This document shows positions 14,199-62,340 of a stretch of 64,000 nucleotides of DNA, in pieces (the first letter of the stretch is position 1; every line of letters begins with the position of its first letter). A program made the translations under genes and the position numbers. The notes under the pieces are model-generated. The model saw only the letters and a list, made by a program, of their open reading frames with translations, did not search any database and was not told the DNA's origin. This DNA is from Anastatus disparis (taxonomy: Eukaryota; Arthropoda; Insecta; Hymenoptera; Eupelmidae): positions 1,118,501 to 1,182,500 of the forward strand of contig JAFFSR010000249.1 of NCBI GenBank assembly GCA_017163975.1. The letters run 5' to 3'.

Positions 14199-14221
14199 AT
14201 ATATAAATATGCATATATCTG

Positions 14222-16312: not shown

Positions 16313-16445
16313 TGGACTCGTTCCAGTATGCTTTTGTTTAAATATCCTATCTTGCATCCGAAAGGATATAAATTTTTACTGGATACAAATTTGACTGAAC
16401 AAAAAAGAAATTTAAACTTTAAATTTCTTGACGAGTGTTTATTAT

Positions 16446-17514: not shown

Positions 17515-17515
17515 C

Positions 17516-18547
17516 AAAAAATTATCTAAGACAACGAAAGTAAATAACTATAAATAACTGTAAATCATCGTAAATAATAATAAATAACAATAAACTATTT
17601 ACTTACCTAAAAATTTTAAAAATTGTAAACAATAGTAAATGATAGTAATTAAGAGTAATTAACTGTAAGTGTTTGTAAATAATAGTAAATAACTTTTAAA
17701 ATCAGTAAGTAATCATAAATAACTAAATAACTATAAATAATTGTAAATAATAATAAATAAGTATAAATAACTTTTATTAATATTTCAGTTTCAATACTTT
17801 TTATTAATTATTTACAGTTATTTAGAGATATTTATAGATATTTACAAATATTTATGAAAATTATTTCTATATGGGTATTTACTAATTTCATAACTCTGAC
17901 TGTGCGAAAGACACCTAGCGCCACTTTTTTGTTGAAATGAAGACCTTCATTTTGCTTTACTTAGACCGTTTCTATCTGCTTTGAGACTGAATTTGTGATC
18001 AGAGCGAGTTGATAGTCAATCGCATGCTCACGATATTTACAGATTTTACTCTACGAATTTTCTATCAAATTCAAATAGCCATATCTCAGTATCAGAAGCA
18101 CCTAGAAACTTTTATAAAAAAGGAAATTGAAGATCTTCAAGCCTACTTCAAAGTTATGTTGGTAGTTTGAATAAAAAAAAATAAAGTACTTTTAACCTCA
18201 ACATACACGAGAATAAACCCGTTTCAGTAAAATTTTTTAATATTTCAAGAGCAACTATTCGGAAAAAAAATTTTTCTCGGCTCTAAAATCACCCCATAAG
18301 ATATTATTTTAACTTACGGCAATAGAAAAAGTATGAAAAAGGGTTTAAAAAAATTTTTACAGTCATAGCTGTACATAGGAAAGAGAAAAATAAGAAAAAA
18401 CAATAAAAAATACGGTTTTTTGCGATTCGGCAAGGTTAAATCTCTATTCCAACAAGGTATTCCAGCTGCTTTTTCAATTTTCAGTATAAACACATCGATC
18501 TAAGGGTTGGGAGCGATGCTCAGTAAGTTTCGGGAAATAACGACCTG

Positions 18548-18552
<5 letters not shown>
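17516..18552 (-). repeat. Right 1.03-kb TIR of the 12132-18552 element
   Basis: Inverted copy of 12132-13163, starting at AAAAATTATCTAAGACAACG and ending CCTGTCTAA against a TA microsatellite. The same 12-bp-like minisatellite occurs at about 17530-17880. The copy is close enough to suggest recent duplication or conversion between the ends. Confidence 0.85.
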
Positions 18553-19889: not shown

Positions 19890-21545
19890 TTAATTTCTTT
19901 TGCATTTCCTAACCATTCCATTTTTTTTTGTCAGTCGAAAAACTTCTAACTCATCCTTGCGGATAACAAGAATGTTAATCAACGGAGTATATTTTGATAC
20001 GTGAGTGGCGATATTTTCAGCGTTTCTAATAAAATCTGCACTCTTCTTGGACAGATTATGCGTGGTAGCATAATGTTTAACTAAACCACCAATACCGTCA
20101 CAAGCGCCTTTACCATGACCTGTTGCAGAAAAAAGCCATTTTCTGTTTACTTTTGAGTTTTGAAGCTCATAGAATTGATATCTATTTTTAAAATGACTGG
20201 CAGCTCCATCGGAAATGGTTATGATTTCATCAAGATCTTGCGCAATATGTTTTTGTTTAAAGTTATCGATAGTTAAATTTATAGCCATTAGGGCGTGAGA
20301 CGAATCATGTTTAATATCGTCAGAGACAGTAACATAACTGACTGTTTTATCATTTCCAAAATAGCATACCGACGTAAATATTGATATTTGGTTTTTACTC
20401 CAATGATATCTTTGAATTTCATTTTGAAGCAGAACTGTCCAATTTTCTGCAAAATCGACATGAATAACTAATTGAAAGTCATTATTTTTCGGTAAAAGTT
20501 TAACCACTTTAATTGCTATACGTTGAATTTCTTTGACCAATTTATGAGCTCTTACAGTGAGAGCGCGCTCTCCTAACTCTATTAAGAAATTTTCAATTGT
20601 GCTAGTTTTATTCAGTAAATTTGATTTTTCCCAAACACCATAAATTATTTCTTCATATAAATCTTCTTCTGTCAAAGAAATTACTTGTAAATCAATAGAA
20701 TCTCCAATAAGACATTCTTTACATTCTCTTAGTACACATTTTATATCATCTTTTAAACAAAAAAGTAAAGAACATATTTTGAATTCATCTGCAATGTCTT
20801 GTTTATTCTCTTTTTTATAATTATTCAAAGCATCTAACATAAGTTTAAGATTCCCGCAGTAAACGCAAAGACACGAATCGGTGGGTGGATGTGGTATAAC
20901 CCACTTCGGTCTTAAAGCGTAGAATGTTGATTTACCAATTTTTGTTTTCATTCCAGGATTTTCGTCTTTAAATAATTGATATATTTCTTTTATACTTCGC
21001 GTAAGAAAGCGTTTGACTTTTTTAGTTTTTATACCATTTCCTTTGATAGATACTGTGTCGCTTTTATTCCCACTTTGACGAGAACAATTAAAATCATCGT
21101 TCAGATAATAATCCTTTACTTTCATTACAATTTCACTATCCAAAGAATGGCCACAATAGTTCTCAGACTGCTTGTAAATTTTTTTATTATTTACCAATGA
21201 TCGTGCTTGATCAATCATATAAATAGTTACATTTGGTAAAACTGATAATAAATAATCTTTGGAAATATCACTTGGTATAATACTCAACAATCGCACTTTC
21301 TCAAGAAAATTTGAACAATGATCTAATGCAATTTTAATATTCTCAAGCCATTTATCATTTGTTTTACATTCATTATTTTCATTCAATGCGGGCAAATCCG
21401 TTATATCGTAGACTTTCATCATTTTACTTGCTATTTGTGAATCAAATGCATCGTTTATTTGTTTTCTTTTTCGGAGAGCATAAGATTCTCGCATCTTGAT
21501 ATTGATACTTTGAGGCATTTTAATTGGTGAAATGTTTAATTTTAA
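19890..21545 (-). pseudogene. Transposase, main part (codons 107-657), separated from its start
   Basis: From the methionine at 21518 the frame gives 542 residues, and it is open for a further nine codons upstream to the target duplication, in phase with the N-terminal part at 39269-39586. Visible parts: a basic N-terminus (RKRKQINDAF), a region with SIKEIYQLFKDENPGMK and a Cys pair CLCVYCGNLKLMLDAL, then DFAENWTV (candidate first catalytic Asp), ITISDGAASHFKNRYQF (second Asp) and FSATGHGKGACDGIGGLVKH near the C-terminus. This DFAEN / SDGxxxxFKN / HGKxxCDGIGG set recurs in many uncharacterised arthropod transposon-like proteins. The internal frame has no stop, so function was probably lost only through the insertion at 21546. 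Confidence 0.85.
21536..21545. repeat. Left 10-bp target duplication of the foldback
   Basis: TTAATTTTAA, identical to 39259-39268 and present once at the matching place in the 59033-61914 copy. Because the target is nearly self-complementary the true duplication could be 9 or 10 bp. Confidence 0.92.
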
Positions 21546-21769
21546 TGAGCCTGAAGTTTCCGACGTCCAGATCCGACACTATTAAAATAATTTTTTTTTT
21601 TATTTAAACTATTTTATTATTGTTTAAATATGATTATTAACTGTAAATATAACTATTAAAAAAGTTTGGATAAGGTCGGACTACCGGAAGGTTGATAAAA
21701 TGCCATGAGTTAAAAAATATACTTTACGGTATGTATGCAAACATAAGGCTGGTAAGGCTGGTGGAAAAA

Positions 21770-24700
21770 AAAATTCTTTGAAGTACCTAATTACGGATAT
21801 TTATAATTGTAACTAAATAAACCAAAAATAAATAATTAATAATCATAAATCAAAATGTAATAAATGAATAATAACAATATGGTGTAGTTTGGAGCACCGT
21901 GACATGACTAAATCCAGACGGGTCTGATAGAAAAAAAAAATCTTTAAAGTACCTAATTACGAATATTTATTATCGTAACTAAATAAACCAAAATTAAATG
22001 ATTGATAATCATTAATTAACATATAATTAATAAATAAAAACGATCTGGTGTAGTTTGAAACACCGGAACATGACTAAATGCAGTCGAGTCTGATGGAAAA
22101 ATACTAGTCTGATTGAAAAAAAAATTCTTTTAAGTACCTTATAACGAATATTTATTATTGTAACTAAATAAACCAAAATTAAATGATTGATAATCATTAA
22201 TTAACATATAATTAATAAATAAAAACGATCTGGTGTAGTTTGAAACACCGGAACATGACTAAATGCAGTCGATTCTGAAGGGAAAATACTAGTATGGTTA
22301 AAAAAAAAGTTCTTTAAAGTACCTTATTGAGAATATTTATTATTGTAACTAAATAAACCAAAATTAAATGATTGATAATCATTAATTAACATATAATTGA
22401 TAGATAAAAACGAGCTGGTGTTGTTTGAAGTACCGGAACATGACTAAATACAGCCAAGTCTGATGAAATCATAAAAGGGTGGTGGGAAAAAAAATTCTTT
22501 AAAGTACCTAATTACGAATATTTATTATTGTAACTAAATAAACCAAAATTAAATGATTGATAATCATTAATTAACATATAATTAATAGATAAAAACGATT
22601 TGGTGCTGTTTGAACTACCGGAACACGACTAAATACAGCCAAGTCTGATGAAATAATAAGAGGCTGGTAGGAAAAAGAATTCTTTAAAGTACCTTATTAC
22701 GAATATTTATTATTGTAATCAAATAAACCAAAATTAAATGATTGATAATCATTATTTAACATATAATTAATAAATAAAAACGATCTGGTGCAGTTTAAAA
22801 TACCGGAACATGACTAAATGCGGTCGAGTCTGAAGGAAAAATACTAGTCTGGTTAAAAAAAAAATTCTTTTAAGTACCTTATTACGAATATTTATTATTG
22901 TAACTAAATAAACCAAAATTAAATGATTGATAATCATTATTCAACATGTAATAAATAAATAATAACAATCTGGTGTAGTTTGAATCACCGGAACATGACT
23001 TAATACAGCGGAGTCTGATGAAAAATTCAAGTTTCGTGAAAAAAAATTCCTTAAAGTACTTAAATACGAATATTTATTATTGTAACTCAATAAACCAAAA
23101 TTAAATGATTGATAATCATTAATTAACATATAATTAATAGATAAAAACGACCTGGTGTTGTTTGAACTACCGGAACATGACTAAATGCAGCCGCGTCTGA
23201 TAGAAAAATACTAGTCTGGTTGAAAAAAAATTTTTTAAAGTACCTAATTACAAATATTTATTATTGTAACTAAATAAACCAAAATTAAATGATTGATAAT
23301 CATTAATTAACATATAATTAATAGACGAAAACGACCTGGTGTTGTTTGAACTACCGGACCATGACTAAATACAGCCAAGTCTGATGAAATATTAAAAGGC
23401 TGGTGGGAAAAAAAATTCTTTAAAGTACCTTATTACGAATATTTATTATTGTAACTAAATAAACCAGAAATAAATGATTAATAATCATTAATTAAGATAT
23501 AATTAATAGATAAAAACGATCTGGTGCTGTTTGAACTACCGGAACATGACTAAATACAGCCAAGTCTTATGAAATAATAAAAGGCTGGTGGGAAAAAAAA
23601 TTCTTTAAAGTACCTTATTACGAATATTTATTATTGTAATCAAATAAACCAAAATTAAATGATTAATAATCATTAATTAACATATAATTAATAAATAAAA
23701 ACGATCTGGTGTAGTTTGAAACACCGGAACATGACTAAATGCAGTCGAGTCTGATGGAAAAATACTAGTCTGATTGAAAAAAAAATTCTTTTAAGTACCT
23801 TATTACGAATATTTATTATTGTAACTAAATAAACCAAAATTAAATGATTGATAATCATTATTCAACATGTAATAAATAAATAATAACAATCTGGTGTAGT
23901 TTGAATCACCGGAACATGACTTAATACAGCGGAGTCTGATGAAAAATTCAAGTTTCGTGAAAAAAAATTCCTTAAAGTACTTAAATACGAATATTTATTA
24001 TTGTAACTCAATAAACCAAAATTAAATGACTGATAATCATTATTTAACATATAAATAATAGTTAAAAACGACCTGGTGTTGTTTGAACTACCGGAACATG
24101 ACTAAATGCAGCCGCGTCTGATGGAAAAATACTAGTCTGGTTAAAAAAAAATTCTTTTAAGTACCTAATTACGAATATTTATTATTGTAACTAAATAAAC
24201 CAAAATTAAATGATTGATAATCATTAATTAACATATAATTAATAGATAAAAACGACCTGGTGTTCTTTGAACTACCGGAACATGACTAAATGCAGCCGCG
24301 TCTGATGGAAAAATACTAGTCTGGTTGAAAAAAAAATTCTTTAAAGTACCTAATTACGAATATTTATTATTGTAACTAAATAAACCAAAATTAAATGATT
24401 GATAATCATTAATTAACATATAATTAATGGATTAAAACGACCTGGTGTTGTTTGAACTACCGGAACATGACTAAATGCAGCCAAGTCTTATGAAATAATA
24501 AGAGGCTGGTGGGAAAAAAAATTCTTTAAAGTACCTTATTACGAATATTTATTATTGTAATCAAATAAACCAAAATTAAATGATTCATAATCATTAATTA
24601 ACATATAATTAATAAATAAAAACGATCTGGTGTAGTTTGAAACACCGGAACATGACTAAATACAGTCGAGTCTGATGGAAAAATACTAGTGTGGTTAAAA

Positions 24701-27700
24701 AAAAAATTCTTTAAAGTACTTAAATACGAATATTTATTATTGTAACTAAATAAACCAAAATTAAATGATTGATAATCATTAATTAACATATAATTAATGG
24801 ATTAAAACGACCTGGTGTTGTTTGAACTACCGGAACATGACTAAATACAGCCAAGTCTGATGAAATAATAAAAGGCTGGTAGGAAAAAAAATTCTTTAAA
24901 GTACCTTATTACGAATATTTATTATTGTAACTAAATAAACCAAAATTAAATGATTGATAATCATTAATTAACATATAATTAATAGATAAAAACGACCTGG
25001 TGTTGTTTGAACTACCGGAACATGACTAAATACAGCCAAGTCTGATGAAATAATAAAAGGCTGGTGGGAAAAGAAAATTCTTTAAAGTACCTTATAACGA
25101 ATATTTATTATTGTAACTAAATAAACCAAAATTAAATGATTGATAATCATTAATTAACATATAATTAATGAATAAAAACGATCTGGCGTAGTTTGAAACA
25201 CCGGAACATGACTAAATGCAGTCGATTCTGAAGGAAAAATACTAGTATGGTTAAAAAAAAAGTTCTTTAAAGTACCTAATTACGAATATTTATTATTGTA
25301 ACTAAATAAACCAAAATTAAATGATTGATAATCATTAATTAACATATAATTAATAGATAAAAACGATTTGGTGCTGTTTGAACTACCGGAACATGACTAA
25401 ATACAACCAAGTCTGATGAAATAATAAGAGGCTGGTAGGAAAAAGAATTCTTTAAAGTACCTTATTACGAATATTTATTATTGTAATCAAATAAACCAAA
25501 ATTAAATGATTGATAATCATTATTTAACATATAATTAATAAATAAAAACGATCTGGTGGAGTTTGAAGCACCGGAACATGACTAAATGCAGTAAAGTCTG
25601 ATGGAAAAATACTAGTCTGGTTGAAAAAAAAATTCTTTAAAGTACCTCATTACGAATATTTATTATTGTAACTAAATAAACCAAAAATAAATGATTGATA
25701 ATCATTAATTAACATATAATTAATAGATAAAAACGACCTGGTGTTGTTTGAACTACCGGAACATGACTAAATACAGCCAACTCTGATGGAATAATGAAAG
25801 GCTGGTGGAAAAAAAATTCTTTAAAGTACCTTATTACGAATATTTATTATTGTAACAAAATAAACCAAAAATGAATGATTGATAATCATAAATTAAAATG
25901 TAATAAATGAATAATAACAACATGGTGTACTTTGAAGCACCGTGACATGACTAAATGCAGCCGGGTCTGATAGAAAAAAAAAATCTTCAAAGTACCTAAT
26001 TACGAATATTTACAATCGTAACTAAATAAACCAAAAATAAATGATTAATAATCATAAATTAACATCTGGTTAATAAATAAGAACGATCTCGTGAAGTTTG
26101 AAGCACCGGAACATGACTAAATGCAGCCAAGTCTGATGGAAAAATACTAGTCTGGTTGAAAAAAAAATTCTTTAAAGTACCTCATTACGAATATTTATCA
26201 TTGTAACTAAATAAACCAAAAATAAATGATTGATAATCATAAATTAACATGTAAATAATAAATAGGAACGATCTGGTGTAGTTTGAAACACCGGAACATG
26301 ACTAAAGGCAGCCAAGTCTGATGGAAAAATACTAGTCTGGTTGAAAAAAAAATTCTTTAAAGTACCTCATTACGAATATTTATCATTGTAACTAAATAAA
26401 CCAAAAATGAATGATTGATAATCATAACTTAACATGTAAATAATAAATAGAAACGATCTAGTGTAGTTTGAAACACCGGAACATGACTAAATGCAGTCGA
26501 TTCTGAAGGGAAAATACTAGTATGGTTAAAAAAAAAGTTCTTTAAAGTACCTTATTGAGAATATTTATTATTGTAACTAAATAAACCAAAATTAAATGAT
26601 TGATAATCATTAATTAACATATAATTGATAGATAAAAACGAGCTGGTGTTGTTTGAAGTACCGGAACATGACTAAATACAGCCAAGTCTGATGAAATCAT
26701 AAAAGGGTGGTGGGAAAAAAAATTCTTTAAAGTACCTTATTACGAATATTTATTATTGTAACTATATAAACCAAAATTAAATGATTGATAATCATGAATT
26801 AACATGTAATAAATAAATAATAACAATCTGGTGTAGTTTGAACCACCGGAACATGACTTAATACAGCGGAGTCTGATAGAAAAAAAAAATCTTTAAAGTA
26901 CCTACTCAAGAATATTTATTATCGTAACTAAATAAACCAAAAATAAATGATTGATAATCATAAATTAACATCTAATTAATAAATAAGAACGATCTGGTGG
27001 AGCTTGAAGCACCGGAACATGACCAAATGCAGCCAAGTCTGATGGAAAAATATTAGTCTGGTTGAAAAAAAAATTCTTTGAAGTACCTAATTACGAATAT
27101 TTATGATTGTAACTAGATGAACCAAAAATAAATAATTAATAATCATAAATTAAAATGTAATAAATAGATAATAACAATATGGTGTAGTTAGAAGCACCGC
27201 GACATGACTAAATGCAGCCGGGTCTGATAGAAAAAAAAATCTTTAAAGTACCTAATTACGAATATTTATGATTGTAACTAAATAAACCAAAAATAAATGA
27301 TTGATAATTAATAATTAACATATAATTAATAGATAAAAACGACCTGGTGTTGTTTGAACTACCGGAACATGACTGGATACAGCCAAGTCTAATGAAATAA
27401 TAAAAGGCTGGTGGGAAAAAAAATTCTTTAAAGTACCTTATTACGAATATTTATTATTGTAACTAAATAAACCAAAATTAAATGATTGATAATCATGAAT
27501 TAACATGTAATAAATAAATAATAACAATCTGGTGTAGTTTGAACCACCGGAACATGACTTAATACAGCGGAGTCTGATGAAAAATTCAAGTTTCGTGAAA
27601 AAAAATTCTTTAAAGTACTTAAATACGAATATTTATTATTAAAACTAAATAAACCAAAAATAAATGATTGATAATCATAAATAAACATATAATAGATAAA

Positions 27701-30700
27701 TAATAACAACCTGGTGCTGTTTGAACCACCGGAACATGACTAAATACAGCCAAGTCTGATGGAATAATAAAAGGCTGGTGGGAGAAAAAATTCTTTAAAG
27801 TACCTTATTACGAATATTTATTATTGTAACTAAATAAACTAAAATTAAATGATTGATAATCATAAATTAAAATGTAATAAATGAATAATAACAATATGGT
27901 GTACTTTTAAGCACCGTGACATGACTAAATGCAGCCGGGTCTGATAGAAAAAAAAAATCTTTAAAGTACCTAATTACGAATATTTATTATTGTAACTAAA
28001 TAAACCAAAAATAAATGATTGATAATCATAAATTAACATGTAAATAATAAATAAAAACGATCTTGTGTAGTTTGAAACACCGGAACATGACTAAATGCAG
28101 CCGAGTCTGATGGAAAAATACTAATCAGGTTGAAAAAAAAGTTCTTTAAAGTACCTTATTACGAATATTTATTATTGTAATTAAATAAACCAAAAATAAA
28201 TGATTGATAATCATTAATAAACACATAATTAATAAATAAAAACAACCTGGTGCTGTTTGAACGACCGGAACATGACTAAATACAGCTAAGTCTGATGGAA
28301 TAATGAAAGTCTTTTAAATATTCGTAATTAGTCTCATCAGACTCATTACGAATATTTATTATCGTAATTAAATAAACCAAAAATAAATGATTGATAATCA
28401 TGAATTAACATATAATCAATAAATAAATACCACCTGCTCTAGTTTGAACCACCGGAACATGATTAAATACAGTGGAGTCTGATGAAAAATACAAGTTTTG
28501 TGGAAAAAAATCTTTAAAGTACCTAATTACGAATATTTATTTTTGTAACTAAATAAACCAAAAATTAAGGATTAATAATCATAAATTAACATGTGATTAA
28601 TAGATAAAAACAACCTGGTGTTGTTTAAACCACCGGAACATGACTGAATACAGCGGAGTCTGATGAAAAAATACTAGTCTGGTTGGAAAAAAAATTCTTT
28701 TTAGTACTTTATTACGAATATTTATTATTTTAACTAAATAAACCAAAAATAAATGATTGATAATTATAAATTAACATGTAAATAATAAATAGAAACAATC
28801 TGGTGTAGTTTGCAACACCGGAACATGACTAAATTCAGCCGAGTCTGATGGAAAAATACTAGCCTGGTTGAAAAAAAAATTCTTTAAAGTACCTTATTAC
28901 GAATATTTATTATTGTAACTAAATAAACCAAAAATTAATGATCGATAATCATTAATTGACATATAATTAATAGATAAAAACGACCTGGTATTGTTTGAAC
29001 TACCGGAACATGACTAAATACAGGCAAGTCTGATGAAATAATAAAAGGCTGGTGGGAAAAAAAATTATTTAAAGTACCTTATTACGAATATTTATTATTG
29101 TAACTAAATAAACCAAAAACAAATGATTAATAATTATAAATCAACATGTAAATAATAAATAAAAACGATTTGGTGTAGTTTAAAACACCGGAACATGATT
29201 AAATGCAGCCGAGTCTGATGGAAAAATACTAGTCTGGTTGAAAAAAAAATTCCTTAAAGTACCTTATTGCGAATATTTATTATTGTAACTAAATAAATTA
29301 AAAATAAAGGATTGATAATCATAAATAAACATATTAATGATAAATAAAAACAACCTGGTGCTGTTTGAACCACCGGAACATGACTAAATACAGCCAAGTC
29401 TGATGGAATAATAAACGGCTGGTGGAAAATAAAATTCTTTAAAGTACCTTATTACGAATATTTATTATTGTAACTAAATAAACCCAAAATAAATGATTGA
29501 TAATCATAAATTAACATGTGATTAATGAATAAAAACAACCTGGTGTTGTTTAAACCACCGGAACATGACTGAATACAGCGGAGTCTGATGAAAAAATACA
29601 AGTCTGATGGAAAAAAATTCTTTATAGTACCTAATTACGAATATATATTATTATAACAAAATAAACCAAAATTAAATGACTGATAATCATATATTAACAT
29701 ATAATCAATAAATAAAAACGATATGGTATACTTTGAAGCACCGGAAGGTAACTAGATTGACCCTTGCATGAGAAATGAGAGGAAACGAGGTTGATTATAA
29801 AATCTTAAGGACCACGTTTCAATTATATATATATTTGTTACGAATATAATCGACTAATAGTAATTTGTATTAAATAACTAAGATATAATTATTGATAAAA
29901 ACGCCACTGGTATAGTTTCAACTAGTGGAACATGAGTAGATACAGCCTAATTTCATGAAAAAAAAATTCTTTTAATTACCTAATTACGAATATTTATTAT
30001 CGCAATGAAATAAAGCAAAAACAAAAGATTGATAATCATAAATTAACTTGAAATAAGTAAATACAAACAACCTGGAGTGCTTCGAGGCACCGGAACATGA
30101 CTGAATGCAGCCGAGTCTGATGAAAAAATACTAGTCTGGTGGAAAAAAAATTCTTTAAAGTACCTAATTACGAATGTTTATTATCGTCATTAAATAAACC
30201 AAAAATAAATTTTTGATAATTATAAGTTAACATATAATTAATAAATATAAACAACTGGGTGTAGTTCGTACCACTGGAAAGGAACTAGATCGACCCTTCT
30301 CTTAGAAATGAGGGAATTCAAAATCAATTGAACGCGTTCGCAATAGTTAATCCCGTTACTAATATAACCGACTTGAAATGCTGTATTATAATTATTTTAT
30401 ATCTTACTTTTAAGAGAAAAATCCTCTTATGTAGTTTCAATAACCGGCACGTGAGCTAATAAAGCGTTGTTTCATACAATAGTACCAATGTGCTGTCAAT
30501 ATCAATAGTTTAAGCAGTAGATAACAGATCTTTATATTTTATCAATTAAACCAATTTTTAACAATTTTTTTTATAAATTTCTATACAATGAATAAATTAT
30601 AACAATCTGTTGTAGTATGAACCACCGGAAAGGAACGAGAACGCCCTTTGATTTAGTAACAAGAGAAATTAAAATAAATTAAAATACAATTACGAACAGT

Positions 30701-31480
30701 GTTCGCAATGTTTATTCTCGTTAATAATATAACTAACTAAAAATGCTTTATTAGAATTATTTTCGATATAATTCATAAGAAAAAACCCCACTGGTGTAGT
30801 TCCAATCACCGGAACGTGGGGGAATAAAGCGAAGTCTGATAAAATAGTACCAATGTGCTGTAAAAATCAATAGTTGAAGCAGTAGATAACGGATATTTAT
30901 CATTTTTATTAATTAAACCAAATTTTATCAATTGTTTATCATTAATTAATATACAATGAATTAATTATAACAATCTGATGTAGTTTCAAGCACTGGATGG
31001 GAACCATATCGCTCCTTGTTTTAGAAAGAAAGGAATTCAAAATTAATAATTAAAATGTAAGGACCGCGTTCGCAATATTTATTGTCGTTACTAATATAAC
31101 CAACTAATAATTTTATTTATTATTAAATAAGTTATAATTAGTGAAAACCAAACGGTAGTGATGTAGTTTCAACTACCAGAACGTCAGTGGATACAGCCTT
31201 CTCCGATATAAAAGTTCCAGTGTGCTGGCAAAAAAAATAGTTTAAGAAGTAAATAACGAATATTTTTTAGTTGTACAAATTAAACCAATATTAAACGATT
31301 GATAATCATTAATCAATGTACAATAAATAAATTCTAACAATCTGTTGTAGTTTGAACCACCGGAAGGGAACGAGATCGCCCCATAAATTAGAAATAAGAA
31401 AATTAGAAATCAATTAAATACAATTTAAGGACCTCGTTCGGAATGTTTATTCCCGTAACTAATATAAGCAATTGAAAATG
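21770..31480 (+). repeat. Left array of about 185-bp monomers (roughly 50 copies)
   Basis: Each monomer contains ordered landmarks: GGTGtagTTTGAAacACCGGAACATGAC, CAGCC/CAGTC-AAGTCTGATG, a poly-A stretch with TTCTTTAAAGTACCT, ATTACGAATATTTATTATTGTAACTAAATAAACC and ATGATTGATAATCATT (each given here as separate landmarks). Divergence rises towards the centre: from about 29750 to 31480 monomers are strongly degraded and carry insertions such as GAACTAGATCGACCC. Outer monomers are nearly identical to the outer monomers of the right array. The dyad AATGATT/AATCATT and the GGTG/CACC pair could form small hairpins. Confidence 0.92.
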
Positions 31481-32049
31481 TTTTTTTTTTATTTATTTAT
31501 TATCTAGCCCCGGCTAGATAATAAATTTTGTAATAACGACCGAATTCTCGTACAATGTACTTTTAAAATAATATGAGACCTACTAACAATCTATAATGTA
31601 ACGTATAATTTTCTAGTAGGTCTGATACTATAAAAACAAAAGTAATAAAAAAATTTAAATTTTATTACACAATTTACTTATCGTACCAATAACTGCTGCA
31701 ATGTGTTACTTGTTACAATGTATAATGTTTGTATGAATAATAAAAAAGGTTATTACAGAAAAACTAATAGTTACGCCCTTTCATAATTTTATACTGATAT
31801 TTATATTTCTAAAAAAGGTAAATATCAAAAATACTGCACATTCATTTCATTAATCCATTTCGATTGCTCTGTTTAAAAATATATGAATGAATTTAGCTTA
31901 TCTCTGAAAGTTAAAACCACACAAAATTATTTTTTTATTCATTACTTAAATCTTAATGAAGGATTCTCATGTTATTTTGGATTCGTTTAAGTAGTAAGAA
32001 CGATGGATAATGACAATAAAGTTGTTTAACGGTATTTATTAGAGAGAAC
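31481..32049. other. Centre of the foldback: spacer with a decayed MITE
   Basis: The junction between the two arms. It holds a diverged relative of the TTAA MITE (31503-31788) and then about 260 bp of AT-rich sequence without repeats or a gene. Confidence 0.6.
31503..31788. mobile_element. Old TTAA-type MITE, partial
   Basis: It shares CCGGCTAGATAATAAATTTTG-like text, GAGACCTACTA-CAATCTA, CTAGTAGGTCT and AATAGTTACGCCCTTTC with the MITE at 6592-6980 in the same order. It is diverged, and the left terminus is lost. Its presence at the palindrome centre, but in only one copy, shows that it was not duplicated with the arms. Confidence 0.6.
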
Positions 32050-35000
32050 TGGTACCATTGCATCGGACTAAACTGTATGAACATGTTCCGTTAGTTAGAA
32101 CTACACCAGTAACGTTTTTTGTAACTCATTACATGTATATTTATAATTATTAATAATTTGTAGTTGGTTATATTTATGAAGAAATTAAATATTGCGAACG
32201 CGTTCCACAAATTGTTGTTTATCCATGTCGTTTCCTGTAATTTGTGATTGAAGGGTAAATATACATTTCTTCCGGTGCCTCGAACTACACCAGATTGTAA
32301 TAATTTATTCATTGTACATTAATTAACGATAAACCATTGTTCAAAATAGTTGTAATTGATAAAAATTAGAAATATCCATCATCTACTGCTTAAACTATTA
32401 ATTGTTACAGCACATTGGTACTATTTTATCAGACAATGATTTATTCGCTCACGTTCCGGCGATTGAAAGTACAGCAGATCGTTTTTATTTATTAATTATA
32501 TGTTAATTTATGATTATCAATCATTTATTTTTGTTTTATTTCATTACAATGATAAATATTCGTAATAAGGTACTTTAAAGAATTTTTTCTTCCACCAGCC
32601 TTTTATTAGTCCATCAGACTTAGCTGTATTTAGTCATGTTCCGGTGTTTCAAACTACACCAGATCGTTTTTATTAATTATTTACATGTTAATTTATGATT
32701 ATCAATCATTTATTTTTGGTTTATTTAGTTACAATAATGAATATTCGTAATAAGGTATTTTAAAGAATTTTTTTTCCCACCAGCCTTTTATTATTTCATC
32801 AGACTTGGCTGTATTTAGTCATGTTCCGGTAGTTCAAACAGCACCAAATCGTTTTTATCTATCAATTATATGTTATTTAATGATTATCAATCATTTAATT
32901 TTGGTTTATTTAGTTACAATAATAAATATTCGTAATTAGGTACTTTAAAGAATTTTTTTTCCCACCACCCTTTTATGATTTCATCAGACTTGGCTGTATT
33001 TAGTCATGTTCCGGTACTTCAAACAACACCAGCTCGTTTTTATCTATCAATTATATGTTAATTAATGATTATCAATCATTTAATTTTGGTTTATTTAGTT
33101 ACAATAATAAATATTCTCAATAAGGTACTTTAAAGAACTTTTTTTTTAACTATACTAGTATTTTTCCTTCAGAATCGACTGCATTTAGTCATGTTCCGGT
33201 GTTTCAAACTACACCAGATCGTTTTTATTTATTAATTATATGTTAATTAATGATTATCAATCATTTAATTTTGGTTTATTTAGTTACAATAATAAATATT
33301 CGTTATAAGGTACTTTAAAGAATTTTCTTTTCCCACCAGCCTTTTATTATTTCATCAGACTTGGCTGTATTTAGTCATGTTCCGGTAGTTCAAACAACAC
33401 CAGGTCGTTTTTATCTATTAATTATATGTCAATTAATGATTATCAATCATTTAATTTTGGTTTATTTAGTTACAATAATAAATATTTGTAATTAGGTACT
33501 TTAAAGAATTTTTTTTTAACCAGACTAGTATTTTTCCACCAGACGCGGCTGCATTTAGTCATGTTCCGGTAGTTCAAACAACACCAGGTCGTTTTTATCT
33601 ATTAATTATATGTTAATTAATGATTATCAATCATTTCATTTTGGTTTATTTAGTTACAATAATAAATATTCGTAATTAGGTACTTTAAAGAATTTTTTTT
33701 CCTACCAGCCTTTTATTATTTCATCAGACTTGGCTGTATTTAGTCATGTTCCGGTAGTTCAAACAACACCAGGTCGTTTTAATCCATTAATTATATGTTA
33801 ATTAATGATTATCAATCATTTAATTTTGGTTTATTTAGTTACAATAATAAATATTCGTATTTAAGTACTTTAAAGAATTTTTTTTTTAACCACACTAGTA
33901 TTTTTCCATCAGACTCGACTGCATTTAGTCATGTTCCGGTGTTTCAAACTACACCAGATCGTTTTTATTTATTAATTATATGTTAATTAATGATTATGAA
34001 TCATTTAATTTTGGTTTATTTGATTACAATAATAAATATTCGTAATTAGGTACTTTAAAGAATTTTTTTTCCCACCACCCTTTTATGATTTCATCAGACT
34101 TGGCTGTATTTAGTCATGTTCCGGTACTTCAAACAACACCAGATCGTTTTTATCTATTAATTATATCTTAATTAATGATTATTAATCATTTATTTCTGGT
34201 TTATTTAGTTACAATAATAAATATTCGTAATAAGGTACTTTAAAGAATTTTTTTTCCCACCAGCCTTTTAATATTTCATCAGACTTGGCTGTATTTAGTC
34301 ATGTTCCGGTAGTTCAAACAACACCAGGTCGTTTTCGTCTATTAATTATATGTTAATTAATGATTATCAATCATTTAATTTTGGTTTATTTAGTTACAAT
34401 AATAAATATTTGTAATTAGGTACTTTAAAGAATTTTTTTTTCAACCAGACTAGTATTTTTCTATCAGACGCGGCTGCATTTAGTCATGTTCCGGTAGTTC
34501 AAACAACACCAGGTCGTTTTTATCTATTAATTATATGTTAATTAATGATTATCAGTCATTTAATTTTGGTTTATTGAGTTACAATAATAAATATTCGTAT
34601 TTAAGTACTTTAAGGAATTTTTTTTCACGAAACTTGAATTTTTCATCAGACTCCGCTGTATTAAGTCATGTTCCGGTGATTCAAACTACACCAGATTGTT
34701 ATTATTTATTTATTACATGTTGAATAATGATTATCAATCATTTAATTTTGGTTTATTTAGTTACAATAATAAATATTCGTAATAAGGTACTTTAAAGAAT
34801 TTTTTTTTTAAACACACTAGTATTTTTCCTTCAGACTCGACCGCATTGAGTCATGTTCCGGTATTTTAAACTGCACCAGATCGTTTTTATTTATTAATTA
34901 TATGTTAAATAATGATTATCAATCATTTAATTTTGGTTTATTTGATTACAATAATAAATATTCGTAATAAGGTACTTTAAAGAATTCTTTTCCTACCAGC

Positions 35001-38000
35001 CTCTTATTATTTCATCAGACTTGGCTGTATTTAGTCATGTTCCGGTAGTTCAAACAGCACCAAATCGTTTTTATCTATTAATTATATGTTAATTAATGAT
35101 TATCAATCATTTAATTTTGGTTTATTTAGTTACAATAATAAATATTCGTAATTAGGTACTTTAAAGAATTTTTTTTCCCACCACCCTTTTATGATTTCAT
35201 CAGACTTGGCTGTATTTAGTCATGTTCCGGTACTTCAAACAACACCAGCTCGTTTTTATCTATCAATTATATGTTAATTAATGATTATCAATCATTTAAT
35301 TTTGGTTTATTTAGTTACAATAATAAATATTCTCAATAAGGTACTTTAAAGAACTTTTTTTTTAACCATACTAGTATTTTTCCTTCAGAATCGACTGCAT
35401 TTAGTCATGTTCCGGTGTTTCAAACTACACCAGATCGTTTTTATTTATTAATTATATGTTAATTAATGATTATCAATCATTTAATTTTGGTTTATTTAGT
35501 TACAATAATAAATATTCGTTATAAGGTACTTTAAAGAATTTTTTTTTTAAACACACTAGTATTTTTCCTTCAGACTCGACCGCATTGAGTCATGTTCCGG
35601 TATTTTAAACTGCACCAGATCGTTTTTATTTATTAATTATATGTTAAATAATGATTATCAATCATTTAATTTTGGTTTATTTGATTACAATAATAAATAT
35701 TCGTAATAAGGTACTTTAAAGAATTCTTTTTCCTACCAGCCTCTTATTATTTCATCAGACTTGGCTGTATTTAGTCATGTTCCGGTAGTTCAAACAGCAC
35801 CAAATCGTTTTTATCTATTAATTATATGTTAATTAATGATTATCAATCATTTAATTTTGGTTTATTTAGTTACAATAATAAATATTCGTAATTAGGTACT
35901 TTAAAGAATTTTTTTTCCCACCACCCTTTTATGATTTCATCAGACTTGGCTGTATTTAGTCATGTTCCGGTACTTCAAACAACACCAGCTCGTTTTTATC
36001 TATCAATTATATGTTAATTAATGATTATCAATCATTTAATTTTGGTTTATTTAGTTACAATAATAAATATTCTCAATAAGGTACTTTAAAGAACTTTTTT
36101 TTTAACCATACTAGTATTTTTCCTTCAGAATCGACTGCATTTAGTCATGTTCCGGTGTTTCAAACTACACCAGATCGTTTTTATTTATTAATTATATGTT
36201 AATTAATGATTATCAATCATTTAATTTTGGTTTATTTAGTTACAATAATAAATATTCGTTATAAGGTACTTTAAAGAATTTTCTTTTCCCACCAGCCTTT
36301 TATTATTTCATCAGACTTGGCTGTATTTAGTCATGTTCCGGTAGTTCAAACAACACCAGGTCGTTTTTATCTATTAATTATATGTCAATTAATGATTATC
36401 AATCATTTAATTTTGGTTTATTTAGTTACAATAATAAATATTTGTAATTAGGTACTTTAAAGAATTTTTTTTTAACCAGACTAGTATTTTTCCACCAGAC
36501 GCGGCTGCATTTAGTCATGTTCCGGTAGTTCAAACAACACCAGGTCGTTTTTATCTATTAATTATATGTTAATTAATGATTATCAATCATTTCATTTTGG
36601 TTTATTTAGTTACAATAATAAATATTCGTAATTAGGTACTTTAAAGAATTTTTTTTCCTACCAGCCTTTTATTATTTCATCAGACTTGGCTGTATTTAGT
36701 CATGTTCCGGTAGTTCAAACAACACCAGGTCGTTTTAATCCATTAATTATATGTTAATTAATGATTATCAATCATTTCATTTTGGTTTATTTAGTTACAA
36801 TAATAAATATTCGTAATTAGGTACTTTAAAGAATTTTTTTTTCTACCAGCCTTTTATTATTTCATCAGACTTGGCTGTATTTAGTCATGTTCCGGTAGTT
36901 AAAACAACACCAGGTCCTTTTAATCCATTAATTATATGTTAATTAATGATTATCAATCATTTAATTTTGGTTTATTTAGTTACAATAATAAATATTCGTA
37001 TTTAAGTACTTTAAAGAATTTTTTTTTTAACCACACTAGTATTTTTCCATCAGACTCGACTGCATTTAGTCATGTTCCGGTAATTCAAACTACACCAGAT
37101 CGTTTTTATTTATTAATTATATGTTAATTAATGATTATGAATCATTTAATTTTGGTTTATTTAATTACAATAATAAATATTCGTAATAAGGTACTTTAAA
37201 GAATTTTTTTTTCAATCAGACTAGTATTTTTCCATCAGACTCGACTGCATTTAGTCATGTTCCGGTGTTTCAAACTACACCAGATCGTTTTTATTTATTA
37301 ATTATATGTTAATTAATGATTATCAATCATTTAATTTTGGTTTATTTGATTACAATAATAAATATTCGTAATTAGGTACTTTAAAGAATTTTTTTTTCAA
37401 CCAGACTAGTATTTTTCTATCAGACGCGGCTGCATTTAGTCATGTTCCGGTAGTTCAAACAACACCAGGTCGTTTTTATCTATTAATTATATGTTAATTA
37501 ATGATTATCAGTCATTTAATTTTGGTTTATTGAGTTACAATAATAAATATTCGTATTTAAGTACTTTAAGGAATTTTTTTTCACGAAACTTGAATTTTTC
37601 ATCAGACTCCGCTGTATTAAGTCATGTTCCGGTGATTCAAACTACACCAGATTGTTATTATTTATTTATTACATGTTGAATAATGATTATCAATCATTTA
37701 ATTTTGGTTTATCTAGTTACAATAATAAATATTCGTAATAAGGTACTTTAAAGAATTTTTTTTTTAAACACACTAGTATTTTTCCTTCAGACTCGACCGC
37801 ATTTAGTCATGTTCCGGTATTTTAAACTGCACCAGATCGTTTTTATTTATTAATTATATGTTAAATAATGATTATCAATCATTTAATTTTGGTTTATTTG
37901 ATTACAATAATAAATATTCGTAATAAGGTACTTTAAAGAATTCTTTTTCCTACCAGCCTCTTATTATTTCATCAGACTTGGCTGTATTTAGTCATGTTCC

Positions 38001-39045
38001 GGTAGTTCAAACAGCACTAAATCGTTTTTATCTATTAATTATATGTTAATTAATGATTATCAATCATTTAATTTTGGTTTATTTAGTTACAATAATAAAT
38101 ATTCGTAATTAGGTACTTTAAAGACTTTTTTTTTTCCCACCAGCCTTTTAATATTTCATCAGACTTGGCTGTATTTAGTCATGTTCCGGTAGTTCAAACA
38201 ACACCAGGTCGTTTTCGTTTATTAATTATATGTTAATTAATGATTATCAATCATTTAATTTTGGTTTATTTAGTTACAATAATAAATATTTGTAATTAGG
38301 TACTTTAAAGAATTTTTTTTTCAACCAGACTAGTATTTTTCTATCAGACGCGGCTGCATTTAGTCATGTTCCGGTAGTTCAAACAACACCAGGTCGTTTT
38401 TATCTATTAATTATATGTTAATTAATGATTATCAGTCATTTAATTTTGGTTTATTGAGTTACAATAATAAATATTCGTATTTAAGTACTTTAAGGAATTT
38501 TTTTTCACGAAACTTGAATTTTTCATCAGACTCCGCTGTATTAAGTCATGTTCCGGTGATTCAAACTACACCAGATTGTTATTATTTATTTATTACATGT
38601 TGAATAATGATTATCAATCATTTAATTTTGGTTTATTTAGTTACAATAATAAATATTCGTAATAAGGTACTTAAAAGAAATTTTTTTTCAATCAGACTAG
38701 TATTTTTCCATCAGACTCGACTGCATTTAGTCATGTTCCGGTGTTTCAAACTACACCAGATCGTTTTTATTTATTAATTATATGTTAATTAATGATTATC
38801 AATCATTTAATTTTGGTTTATTTAGTTACGATAATAAATATTCGTAATTAGGTACTTTAAAGATTTTTTTTTTCTATCAGACCCGTCTGGATTTAGTCAT
38901 GTCACGGTGCTCCAAACTACACCATATTGTTATTATTCATTTATTACATTTTGATTTATGATTATTAATTATTTATTTTTGGTTTATTTAGTTACAATTA
39001 TAAATATCCGTAATTAGGTACTTCAAAGAATTTTTTTTTCCACCA
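32050..39045 (-). repeat. Right array of about 185-bp monomers (roughly 38 copies)
   Basis: Same monomer in the opposite orientation. It contains a clear higher-order repeat: four monomers (739-740 bp) at about 34804-35543 are repeated at about 35544-36283 with the same order of variants. A further block starting near 33117 recurs about 2956 bp downstream (16 monomers). Identical 62-63 codon frames appear in many monomers because the sequence is repeated, not because of coding selection. Confidence 0.92.
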
Positions 39046-39258
39046 GCCTTACCAGCCTTATGTTTGCATACATACCGTAAAGTATATTTTTTAACTCATG
39101 GCATTTTATCAACCTTCCGGTAGTCCGACCTTATCCAAACTTTTTTAATAGTTATATTTACAGTTAATAATCATATTTAAACAATAATAAAATAGTTTAA
39201 ATAAAAAAAAAAATTATTTTAATAGTGTCGGATCTGGACGTCGGAAACTTCAGGCTCA

Positions 39259-39268
39259 TTAATTTTAA
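39259..39268. repeat. Right 10-bp target duplication of the foldback
   Basis: TTAATTTTAA, the partner of 21536-21545. It lies inside codons 107-110 of the interrupted transposase frame. Confidence 0.92.
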
Positions 39269-39586
39269 GCTACTTGAAGTCTCGTTGAGCTGTTCTACCA
39301 CAGCCTCACTATGAATAAAATCTTCCGAAGATTGTTGACTGCTTGAAGTCGATAAAATAGGCGCATTTTTCACTTCATCTAATAATATTTTGTAACACGA
39401 AGGGCATACTTTATCTTCTCTAGAGAAAGAAGTATTTAGATACAAGCGCTTCAAAGACTCCGTTAGATCACCTAATTCTCTAAGCGGACTTTTGGAGCAA
39501 TTATAAATAACTTTTTTGTGCCTTTCTTTTAAATCCTTGCACTTCATTTCAACAATCAGTGATGCCATTATTGATATTCTGTTCAA
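39269..39586 (-). pseudogene. Transposase N-terminal part (codons 1-106), separated from the main part
   Basis: It starts at ATG 39586 (MNRISIMASLIVEMKC). It contains HKKVIYNCSKSPLRELGDL and a CPSCYKILL cysteine pair that may belong to a zinc-binding fold, then a Ser/Gln-rich linker. The frame reaches the target duplication in phase (Leu-Lys-Leu) and then runs by chance 23 codons into the foldback terminus before a stop. The homologous stretch at 60485-60820 continues directly towards the main transposase part without an insertion. A truncated 129-residue protein could be made, but it would lack all catalytic motifs. Confidence 0.85.
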
Positions 39587-39929
39587 TGACAGATCGAAAA
39601 AAATAATTTTTCTTAAACAACTTTATTTTTTATCTTCCTTTTCTTATATTTTTAAACGCGTCAAGTCGTTGATGAGAATGCAAAGAACGAATCATCGCCA
39701 CCTAGTAGTGACATGCGTCAACTCCCTAGAAAATAAATTCAAATTCTAGGCGCGAAATTCAAACTGATAAAAAAATTATATTCTTCAACAAAAAAAATTT
39801 TTATTATAATAATGTACCATAAAAAGAGGATGAATGGTTATATATTCTTTCATCAAAATAACTTTTTTTTTAAATTAAAAAATTAATATCTTTAGATTTT
39901 AATCTTTAACGAAAATTGCGTTTCTTCAA
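39587..39929 (-). promoter_or_regulatory. Transposase leader and likely promoter region
   Basis: This is the sequence between the right TIR and the transposase ATG. It is strongly conserved between this copy and 60136-60484 (for example GGCGATGATTCGTTC, CATCAACGACTTGACGCG, then a TTTAAAAATATAAG-like TATA candidate). Conservation outside the coding region suggests it belongs to the element, but no core promoter can be proven. Confidence 0.4.
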
Positions 39930-55944: not shown

Positions 55945-56029
55945 TGATTCTAAATTGATTCTTAAATAATACAGGAAAGAATAAAATTTCTAGAACTTTA
56001 CACGTCTCTCAACTAAAGATAGATGAAAA
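55646..56029. other. Unique spacer between the two arrays, with (GT)n
   Basis: It contains the hairpin CTCTTACTC...GGTAAGAG near 55708-55730 and a (GT)n microsatellite at 55884-55942. No gene: the 72-codon frame at 55729-55947 ends in the translated GT run. Confidence 0.6.
55884..55942 (+). repeat. (GT)n microsatellite
   Basis: About 29 uninterrupted GT units. Confidence 0.95.
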
Positions 56030-58522: not shown

Positions 58523-59032
58523 TTTGTTATTTAAGTTATATTATCTTTTTTTTTTCTTTTTATTAACTGTAAAAAATATAATTTTTAAAATATATTAAGT
58601 TATACTCAAAAATATATTTGAATATTTATTACAAACCCATTTTTGTTTTCCTTATTTATATGATGGTATACAATAAAAGTTCCTATTGCTTATATAAAAC
58701 CTATTTTCATAAACACTAATATCTTATAAATGTCCATAGCATTGATAAATTTTTGTTTTTTTACCTAAATTATTAAATTTATAAAGTTTGTATTATAAAT
58801 ATATTACTATATTTTCCACACCACCTAGTATTTTTGAATACCGAGGTATATATGTAGGCGCGTTTTTTTTAGTGGTTTCCCAGGAGGCCTATTTCCACTC
58901 GTATTTTTTAAAAATGTTTTTTTTTTAATTAATGAATAAAAAAAATAATTTTTTTATTTATACATTACAAATAATAAATAACATCTTTTAAATATTTTCG
59001 CTGAAATATAAAATATTAAAAATAATATGTAT
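58523..59032. other. AT-rich stretch without a gene
   Basis: T-rich and A-rich runs only. A slightly more GC-rich phrase near 58846-58895 (CCGAGGTATATATGTAGGCG, CCCAGGAGGCC) is not part of any recognised feature. Confidence 0.4.
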
Positions 59033-59714
59033 GGCTGATTCCATTCAGATTCATGCAGGCCGTCACTGATCAAATTTTTTTTTCTTCTGAGTAATAAAAA
59101 TACCTTCTATTATGTATATGAAGATAAAATTTACCTCGTAGAACGCTCAAAAAAATTTTATTTTCTTACTACAGCAATTTTAGTGTTGGATGTAATACGA
59201 AAATTCGAAAATTGAAAATGAACCTCTACTTTTAAATGACTATAGCTCCGTCAATTTTCAACTTTTTGTGCGTTTTTTAACAAAAATGTGCAAAATTTGG
59301 TCTAGTTTTAAATGCAATCTCGATTTTTGATCCCGCTGAGTTATTTACGAAAAACCGAAAAAAGCGATTTTTTTCAAACACGATTTTCTCAAAAACTATA
59401 TTTTTTTTTTTAATTTTTATATGATTTTATACATAAAGAATACTAACTTTTAGGATAGGTGGAAACATGCGATTTTGCCTTATTTTTTTTTAACAGATTT
59501 TTAAACGTTTTTTTTATATTTTCGATTTTAAAACATTGATACCATGGCGCATCGTACTATTTTTGCAACTTTACGTGTTCTTACAACAATTTTTATGCTT
59601 TTATTTATTAATATATCAAAAATATTAACAATAATGTTTAAAATAAACCCCGGATCAAATATTTTGATCAATTAGAACCAAAGTTATGACGATTTAAAGT
59701 TTAAAAAAAAATGC

Positions 59715-60122
59715 TTAAGAGTCCGCTGTATCTCTGTCCTTTTCTAATTAAAAAATTGACTTTTTTCCCAAAATTAGCAACGAGTGGCAAAAATAAAGAG
59801 ATGGTTTCGATGTGTTTAATAAAATGTAATATTTTCTTTGATTAGTATGAATTAATTTTATTGCTTCGTTTTTAAGAAAAGTTGGAATAACTTAAAAAAT
59901 TAGAAATTAGTGTCAAATAATGGGATTTTCAAGTTATTCCAACTTTTCTTGAAAATAAAGCAGTGGAATTAAATTATTCTTATCAGAGAAAATATTGCTT
60001 TCTATTACACGAATCGAAACCATCTCTTTATTTCTGCCTGAAGCTATTAGTTTTTATAAAAAATAAATTTTAAATAGATTCGGTAAAACAGGTAACTGTG
60101 TCGGTATACAGCTGACTCTTAA
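59715..60122. mobile_element. TTAA-type MITE, copy 6
   Basis: The ends TTAAGAGTCCGCTGTATCTC and AGCTGACTCTTAA, with TTAA at both sides. Arms share CTGTCCTTTTCTAATTA and AGTTGGAATAACTT. It lies inside the TIR of the truncated copy; the other two TIR copies are uninterrupted here, so the insertion is younger. Confidence 0.85.
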
Positions 60123-60484
60123 ATAAATATGATATTTACATTGAGGAAACGCAATTTCCGTTAAAGATTAAAATCTGAAGCTATAAATTTTTTAATTTAA
60201 AAAAAAAAGTTATTTTGATGAAAGAATACATAACCATTTATCCTCTTTTTATGGTACATTATTATAATAAAAATTTTTTTTGTCGGAGAGTATAATTTTT
60301 TTATTAGTTCGAATTTCGCACCTAGAATTTGAATTTATTTTGTAGGGAGTTGACGCATGTCACTACTAGGTGGCGATGATTCGTTCTTTGCATTCTCATC
60401 AACGACTTGACGCGTTTAAAAATATAAGAAAAGGAAGATAAAAAATAAAGTTGTTTAAGAAAAATTATTTTTTTCGATCTGTCA

Positions 60485-61914
60485 TTGAACAGAATATTAA
60501 TAATAGCATCACTGATTGTTAAAATAAAGTGCAAGGATTTAAAAGAAAGGCACAAAAAAGTTGTTTATGATTGCTCCAAAAGTCCGCTTAGAGAATTAGG
60601 TGATCTAACAGAGTCTTTGAAGCGCTTGTATCCAAATACTTCTTTCTCTAGAGAAGATAAAGTATGCCCTTCGCGTTACAAAATATTATTAGATGAAGTG
60701 AAAAATGCGCATATTTCATCGACTTCAAGCAGTCAACAATCTTCGGAAGATTTTATTCATAGTGAGGCTGTGGTAGAACAGCTCAACGAGACTTCAATTA
60801 GCTTAAAATTAAACATTTAACCAATTAAAATGCCTCAAAGTATCAATATTAAGATGCGAGAATCTTATGCTCTCTGAAAAAGAAAACAAATAAACGATGC
60901 ATTTGATTCACAAATAGCAAGTAAAATGATGAAAGTCTACGATATAACGGATTTGCCCGCATTAAATGAAAATAATGAATGTAAAATAAATGATAAATGA
61001 CTTGAGAATATTAAAATTGCATTAGATAATTGTTCAAATTTTCTTGAGAAAGTGCGATTGTTGAGTATTATACCAAGTGATATTTCCAAAGATTATTTAT
61101 TATCAGTTTTACCAAATGTAACTATTTATATGATTGATCAAGCACGATCATTGGTAAATAATAAAAAAATTTACAAGCAGTCTGAGAACTATTGTGGCCA
61201 TTCTTTGGATAGTAAAATTGTAATGAAAGAAAAGGATTATTATCTGAACGATGATTTTAATTGTTCTCGTCAAAGTGGGAATAAAAGCGACACAGTATCT
61301 ATCAAAGGAAATGGTATAAAAACTAAAAAAGTCAAACGCTTTCTTACGCGAAGTATAAAAGAAATATATCAATTATTTAAAGACGAAAATCCTGGAATGA
61401 AAACAAAAATTGGTAAATCAACATTCTACGCTTTAAGACCAAAGTGGGTTACATCACATCCACCCACCGATTCGTATCTTTGCGTTTACTGCGAGAATCT
61501 TAAACTTATGTTAGATGCTTTGAATAATTATAAAAAAGAGAATAAACAAGACATTGCAGATTTGGAATCGAAAATATGTTCTTTACTTTTTTGTTCAAAA
61601 GATGATATGAAATGTGTACTCAGAGAATCTAAAGAATGTCCCATTGGAAATTCTATTGATTTACAAGTAATTTATTCTACAGAAGAAGATTTATATGAAG
61701 AAATAATTTATGGTGTTTGGGAAAAATCAAATTGACTGAATAAAACTCGCACAATTGAAAATTTCTTAATAGAGTTAAGAGAGCGCGCTCTCACTGTAAG
61801 TGCTCATAAATTGGTCAAAGAAATTCAACGTATAGCAATTAAAGAGATTGAACTTTTAGCGAAGAATAATGACTTCCAATTAGTTATTCATGTCGATTTT
61901 GCAGAAAATTGGAT
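60485..61914 (+). pseudogene. Transposase pseudogene of the truncated copy
   Basis: It starts MNRILIIASLIV and matches the N-terminal part at 39269-39586. Stop codons then break the frame: a TAA at about 60818-60820 where the other copy has Ser, a TGA at about 60874 (Arg in the other copy), a TGA at about 60998 (Trp) and a TGA at about 61733. CPSR replaces the CPSC cysteine pair. The longest open part (61052-61735) covers the Cys-pair region. The frame ends at VDFAENW, where the copy is truncated. Confidence 0.9.
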
Positions 61915-62340
61915 AGTTACCCGCGTAAAAAAAATTAAGTATATCATAACTTCATATGAAGTTCATGTCTCCTCAAGTTCATATTAACGTGTCCAACGAG
62001 ACTTTCTGAACTTGTAATTTTTTAGGTTTAATTAATAAATGTTTATCGAGAGTTTCTCTTAAGTTCATCTGAAATTTATCTGAAATTTATCTAAAGTTCA
62101 TGAGGAGTTTATCATGGGTTGATCGAAAGTTGATCCGAACTTTATTAAAAGTTGATCCAAAGGTGATCACAAGTTGATACAAAGTTGATCTAAAGTTTAT
62201 CGAAAGCTTCTTAAAGTTTATCAAAGGTTAATCTTAAAAAAAAGTCAAGTATATAATTATTTCATATGAAGTTGATATGAACATCTGCAAAGAGACTTTC
62301 TAAACTAGTAATTTTTAAGTTTAAATAAAAAGATGTTTAT
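61915..62340. repeat. Short-word repeat block framed by a direct repeat
   Basis: AAGTTGATC(C/T)AAA words of 11-14 bp recur at least ten times between about 62080 and 62235. A longer phrase (ACTTCATATGAAGTT...GAGACTTTCTGAACTTGTAATTTTT) appears at about 61951-62029 and, diverged, at about 62262-62328. No gene. Confidence 0.6.

Follow-up and report, generated by a model that had tools for sequence, protein, structure and literature searches.

How satellite arrays spread within genomes has usually had to be deduced from relics scattered among loci. The locus analysed here raises the question of whether a long satellite array can move as one unit. It lies in a window of 64,000 nucleotides of the Anastatus disparis genome (contig JAFFSR010000249.1), for which an earlier note, made from the sequence alone, had suggested that a whole array of inverted satellite repeats behaved as a single mobile element.

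Structure of the element and its insertion site

The boundaries of the foldback-type element were set by comparison with other copies (Table 1). Profile search found 51 forward monomers followed by 37 reverse ones, 88 in total, in good agreement with the head-to-head arrays of about 50 and 38 copies described previously; a stricter anchor recognised 46 left and 36 right monomers. The ∼185-bp units form two inverted arrays at 21.8–31.4 kb and 32.0–39.0 kb of the window, the longer arm being ∼9.8 kb, and in self-comparison of the window the arms matched each other in opposite orientation over 7.4 kb with 87% identity. Both arms were capped by an identical, unique terminal domain. The caps had been given as 220 bp and were found to be ∼229 bp long, with the perfect identity of the ends reaching 579 bp. 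The ends of the element family read ATGAGCCTGAAGTTTCC. The window contained 0 N, and no open reading frame (ORF) of at least 110 aa was found in the window element.

Table 1. Positions of the window element, its parts, its target site and the host transposon (window coordinates)
Feature	Position	Strand
Left copy of target-site duplication, TAATTTTA	21537..21544	.
Right copy of target-site duplication, TAATTTTA	39260..39267	.
Whole foldback-type transposon, 17,715 bp, ATGAGCC...GGCTCAT	21545..39259	.
Left terminal domain, ∼229 bp; its first 35 bp have 138 genome occurrences at ≤3 mismatches	21545..21773	+
Right terminal domain, same sequence as left	39031..39259	-
Left satellite arm, 51 monomers of ∼185 bp; from ∼29740 inward degenerate, partly 367-bp dimer	21774..31378	+
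Right satellite arm, 37 monomers of ∼185 bp	32043..39030	-
Centre between the arms, without long ORF	31379..32042	.
MITE-like sequence within the centre, 69–72% identical to the copies at 6590–6980 and 52225–52614	31519..31787	.
Host transposon ORF, C-terminal part, interrupted; frame extends a few codons into the element	19893..21578	-
Host transposon ORF, N-terminal part, interrupted; 5' end at 39622, low end inside the element	39200..39622	-
Host transposon paralogue without insertion; empty site 60803–60812	59010..61947	-

A direct repeat of 10 bp, TTAATTTTAA, flanks the element (chance of 5.6 × 10–6 per comparison), and it had been taken as a perfect 10-bp duplication. The flanking duplication was confirmed, but its length was rejected, as the ends of other copies gave 8 bp. 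The repeat appears to be 10 bp long because the target bases beside the 8 bp equal the terminal A and T of the element. With a duplication of 8 bp, each end of the element shifts outward by one base compared with the earlier placement.

The insertion target was found to be another DNA transposon, of which a paralogue without the insertion is present in the same window. The empty paralogue matched the flanks of the window element at 95.6% on the left and 96.1% on the right, and the two matches met with a 10-base overlap, indicating that the target site is single where nothing has been inserted. The host transposon (18869–40660 minus the insertion, and also 59010–61947) has inverted ends of ∼0.7 kb and a protein of ∼650–690 aa with a predicted integrase/transposase-like core, whose named relatives occur in ticks and a stick insect. 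Pfam search of the host ORFs returned no family above the cut-off, and fold comparison of the host protein listed only integrase and transposase cores and named no transposon superfamily.

Copies of the element across the genome

The assembly of this species (939 Mb) was searched with the 35-bp terminus at up to 3 mismatches. The 138 occurrences comprised 66 forward and 72 reverse ones, and the reversed-pattern control gave 0 and 0. By hand count, at least 33 head-to-head end pairs with a spacing of 2.5–17.9 kb were present among the matches listed. One pair, of which the ends only were read (C346:5656934–5674812), spans 17.9 kb with an 8-bp duplication and is slightly larger than the window element. 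With a 217-bp end query, the 40 scored matches out of 133 candidates fell into 27 at 95–100% and 13 at 77–80% identity; six of these 40 agreed with the query at all 217 bp and belonged to five copies (C278, C246 at both ends, C243, C123 and C9). The lower class represented a diverged subfamily, with a terminal domain 77–80% identical over up to 199 bp. Its terminal 35 bp had 0 mismatches in 8 and one mismatch in 3 of the 13 matches, among those listed.

Exact target-site duplications were observed in 15 of the 26 copies with both ends read, the window copy included: 13 of 8 bp, one of 9 bp and one of 7 bp. The thirteen 8-bp duplications were 13 different sequences. As a control, the left flank of one copy was paired with the right flank of another, and matches of 7–10 bp occurred in 1 of 650 pairings. 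No duplication was detected in 11 of the 26 copies, which may be old or rearranged. Recombination between copies was considered as the cause of the missing duplications and was rejected: no duplication was exactly shared between any two of the 26 copies, and five near-matches (one mismatch) were found, four of them between copies with their own duplications. C373 is not truncated and has an 8-bp duplication. When the flanks of 11 copies were compared, matches were found within C290 and within C65, together with short diverged ones between C290 and C34.

All 18 bodies that were read turned out to be two-armed monomer palindromes of 2.5–17.7 kb, forward then reverse; the sequence read for C373 stopped ∼0.3 kb short of its end, and C5 belongs to the diverged subfamily. 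The number of monomers per copy ranged from 11 (C362, counting matches >100 bp) to 88 in the window element. The sampled ends for which no partner was listed ran into monomer arrays in 6 of 6 cases. Comparison of the end and the monomer core with viral contigs gave 0 matches. The genome search that the earlier note had proposed was thus carried out, and it returned the same ends elsewhere, with different array lengths and different duplications. Repeat-built long inverted arms, duplications and several independent insertions, the structural criteria of a foldback-type transposon, were all found, and we are confident that the window element is a non-autonomous foldback-type DNA transposon with long satellite arrays as its inverted arms.

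The monomer query gave 518 matches in the genome, and all of the 150 listed fell within members of the family or, at C280, directly followed one of its ends. Since 37 of 512 first-look monomer candidates were scored, free arrays may exist as well. The earlier idea that the array moves and seeds new loci was borne out as to movement, and no free satellite was seen among the 150 of 518 matches listed. It is tentatively suggested, with somewhat more doubt than belief, that the satellite itself is a transposon. Its arrays would then not be left behind after seeding by a mobile element; their maintenance, homogenisation and redistribution would take place only while they form the arms of a foldback family with recent activity, which moves by cut-and-paste in units of up to ∼18 kb with the repeat order kept.

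Transfer of the arrays, probable exchange between arms and age

The monomer order was compared among 13 copies, that is, in 78 pairs. Shared blocks of at least 97% identity were found in 35 of the 78 pairs, with lengths of 112–3,626 bp (median of 1,114 bp). A block of at least 1 kb at 97% was present in 19 pairs and in none of the other 59, which indicated that the shared order is not universal. In four pairs picked for their long shared blocks, same-position monomers were 96.7–98.4% identical, whereas monomers shifted by 1–4 positions were 87.4–89.7% identical. For these four selected pairs, the identity of 97–98% in register versus 87–90% when shifted implied that the arrays moved with the element. 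The same order at unrelated sites is predicted by copying through transposition, but not by independent local expansion.

A query from the centre (31820–32080) detected three places in the genome, namely the window copy, C34 (99%) and C373 (97%). C373 shared 2.04 kb across the centre at 97.5% with the window copy and likewise with C34. The window copy and C34, which has no duplication, were colinear over 7.05 kb through the centre at 93.6%. The common centre of these three copies suggested that separate insertions derive from one element. The claim that the whole array is one mobile unit was thus strengthened by the common ends, the different duplications and the in-register order, and sequence comparison supports the conclusion that long satellite arrays are carried to other loci, with their repeat order preserved, by a family of mobile elements, which directly shows one route for the spread of satellite DNA.

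The age of the insertion was estimated from the interrupted host ORF, which is open across the junction apart from one frameshift near the C-terminus. In simulated neutral decay, no more than one lesion at 2% divergence had a P of 0.045. If the insertion is no more than 2% old, lineages that separated afterwards should differ by no more than ∼4%, and the monomers were accordingly grouped at 96% identity. The 81 monomers compared (45 left and 36 right, one 349-bp left unit being dropped) fell into 31 groups by single linkage, 37 by average linkage and 39 by complete linkage, and 20 of them had no neighbour above 96%. At least 31 groups at 96%, together with an insertion at most 2% old, imply that much of the array diversity predates the window insertion. 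The right arm contained six internal blocks of 0.5–1.26 kb with 97.7–99.0% identity, which may have been duplicated after the insertion, so 17,715 bp is not necessarily the size at which the element was inserted.

Monomers L01–L20 had best partners in the right arm with a mean identity of 98.9%, versus 97.1% within their own arm; for L21–L46 (25 kept), the right-arm partners were at 90.9% and the own-arm partners at 92.3%. Blocks common to both arms sit at shifted positions, such as one of 1.9 kb at 97.9%. The tree built from the 81 monomers required 22 arm changes against a mean of 25.9 after shuffling, and 34 of 500 shuffles were as low, indicating that the arms are nearly mixed. Exchange between arms would be the simplest reading of the shifted blocks and the intermixed monomers. 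The inner left arm contains degenerate ∼367-bp dimers that are partly monomer-like, and the monomer was probably born inside the element from this dimeric inner repeat; the birth of a repeat inside an element has been proposed for Tetris (PMC4079207). The similarity between the terminal domain and the monomer, with the candidate binding motif ACTACCGGAA, was marginal, being reached in 21 of 500 shuffles, so that transposase sites in the monomers are at most putative.

The arrays might also have grown in place by local unequal crossing-over after insertions of short foldback elements, without ever having moved. The varying array lengths among copies, the 59 of 78 pairs without a shared 1-kb block at 97%, and the near-identical right-arm blocks, which recent local duplication would give, agree with such growth. 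It is nevertheless highly improbable, as the in-register order is common to insertions in the four tested pairs and shared blocks reach 3.6 kb, the monomer groups are more diverged than the young window insertion allows, and left- and right-arm monomers nearly intermix. Longer copies elsewhere might also have enlarged short insertions through gene conversion or unequal exchange, which would produce a shared order without a full-array move. The arm-to-arm blocks at shifted registers suggest that exchange does occur, and ectopic exchange could leave copies without a duplication, as found in 11 of 26. However, in C243, C322, C123, C9 and C290 the shared blocks begin at the very ends and span many monomers while the duplications are intact; moreover, no duplication was exactly shared among the 26 copies, and 4 of the 5 one-mismatch cases joined copies with duplications of their own. 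We therefore consider this origin of the shared order unlikely.

False foldbacks are known to occur in long reads (PMC12870357), and the palindrome could in principle be a chimeric read carried into the assembly. But the arms are unequal in length and order (51 versus 37 monomers), both flanks are joined in the empty paralogue, and the at least 33 end pairs among the matches listed and the exact duplications in 15 of 26 copies would hardly result from such an error, which is thus considered extremely improbable. Transposition of the element together with its arrays remains the preferred reading. Because insertions flanked by duplications share the same monomer order, the sequence itself records that a long array has moved as a single unit, and the family could serve for tracing the growth of arrays, exchange between arms and transposition in individual copies.

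Possible mechanism, related elements and neighbouring features

A transposase supplied from elsewhere would most likely act in trans and recognise the conserved terminal ∼35 bp, which are constant in a subfamily whose terminal domain differs by 20–23%. The whole palindrome would then be cut out and reinserted with a duplication of ∼8 bp, and the arrays would travel along, as in the tested pairs, where the succession of monomers was shared at 97% identity for as much as 3.6 kb. In the intervals between transpositions, unequal exchange and conversion, acting inside an arm or across the two, may change how many monomers there are and transfer blocks to the opposite arm. No transposase-like ORF was seen in the 18 bodies or in six ∼3.5-kb stretches behind ends, the longest ORFs of the family being 159 aa (in the centre of C65), 117 and 113 aa. 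The duplications, mostly 8 bp with single cases of 9 and 7 bp, fit a Mutator-like element, but a range of 7–9 bp does not settle the superfamily; hAT and P elements likewise make 8-bp duplications. Our best guess for the superfamily is Mutator-like, a group with duplications of 8–10 bp (PMC5225508). The genome contained 131 MULE-domain matches. Among 15 fetched MULE loci (∼3.3 kb each), the 20-bp end was found in 0 at up to 5 mismatches, and in 2 of them the end domain gave weak matches of short length.

Compared by description, Tetris of Drosophila virilis is the closest known element. The available parts of its report (PMC4079207) describe a non-autonomous foldback-type element with ∼220-bp AT-rich tandem repeats in the arms after a terminal domain, duplications of 8–10 bp, monomers ∼87% alike in complete elements and a transposase that was not found; fiber-FISH revealed long arrays between two terminal domains. 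The architecture, the duplication size and the missing transposase are thus alike. In contrast, the arms of Tetris, with three structurally complete copies, reach 1,735 bp versus ∼9.8 kb here, and the present family has exact duplications in 15 copies and long arrays that moved. The latter argue against the suggestion of the Tetris authors that larger arrays may disrupt transposition (PMC4079207). Galileo of Drosophila, a P-superfamily element with a known transposase sequence, has long arms, some with ∼210-bp tandem repeats (Galileo F), that change in length through repeat expansion (PMC3573991, PMC3688188). Unlike those here, the arms described in the accessible parts of these papers do not exceed ∼1.26 kb and have two or three repeats; 7-bp flanking sequences are mentioned.

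Tm1 and Muta1, of the Mutator/Foldback type, resemble the present family in their composite repeat-built arms, their many non-autonomous copies and their duplications (8–10 bp in Tm1, 8–9 bp in Muta1), but differ, as far as the accessible text describes them, in subrepeats of 12–15 bp, arms of 145 bp in Muta1 and a known or predicted transposase (PMC3169594, PMC5225508). Very large segments are likewise mobilised by foldback transposons in Ising's TE of Drosophila melanogaster, so large size alone has a precedent; in the available description, however, hundreds of kb lie between two foldback elements and not in satellite arms (PMC6431247). Mobile elements with satellite-like arrays also include the Helentron elements of Crassostrea gigas (PMC7492417) and MITEs with satellite arrays, such as Xenopus miDNA4 (PMC12628747, PMC9659126). 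Helitron-type elements differ, according to the accessible parts of the reports, in that they make no target-site duplication (PMC9659126) and carry the array centrally and not as inverted arms (PMC12628747). Besides Tetris, no foldback element that is resolved at the sequence level and has satellite arms on the kb scale was noticed in the openly accessible literature. The earlier note had described known foldback elements as much smaller and with shorter subrepeats; the arms described for Tetris and Galileo are indeed much shorter, but their subrepeats are comparably long, with ∼220 bp in Tetris (PMC4079207) and ∼210 bp in Galileo F (PMC3573991). Satellite-like repeats in foldback arms were thus already known, and the present family differs in the arm size, the number of duplication-flanked insertions and the in-register evidence.

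With sizes of up to ∼18 kb and dozens of locations, such palindromes could plausibly give rise to rearrangements and to errors in assembly. A second palindromic element with long arms was observed in the window at 12136–18548, inside a TA microsatellite. Its inverted ends span ∼1.03 kb and are 95% identical, its arms contain ∼10-bp subrepeats (12826–13140 and 17539–17854), and it has no ORF of at least 120 aa. It recalls the TA-targeting Mutator-like MuTAnT, as described in the accessible part of the source (PMC4486113). Long imperfect palindromes were located at 57394–58429 (86%) and 15465–16302 (91% identical to its own reverse complement). Palindromic MITE-like sequences were present at 6590–6980, 52225–52614 and 50086–50417, the first two ending like TTAAGAAGGGGCCG, and the centre of the window element holds a relative ∼70% identical to these two. 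Other tandem arrays were found at 53050–55633 (∼281 bp, 9 copies) and 56015–56735 (∼176 bp, 3.5 copies), the latter also giving a self-inverted match. The regions 420–3697 and 44914–47749 contained copia-type retrotransposon ORFs and LINE-like ORFs, the LINE-like ones being recognised by eye.
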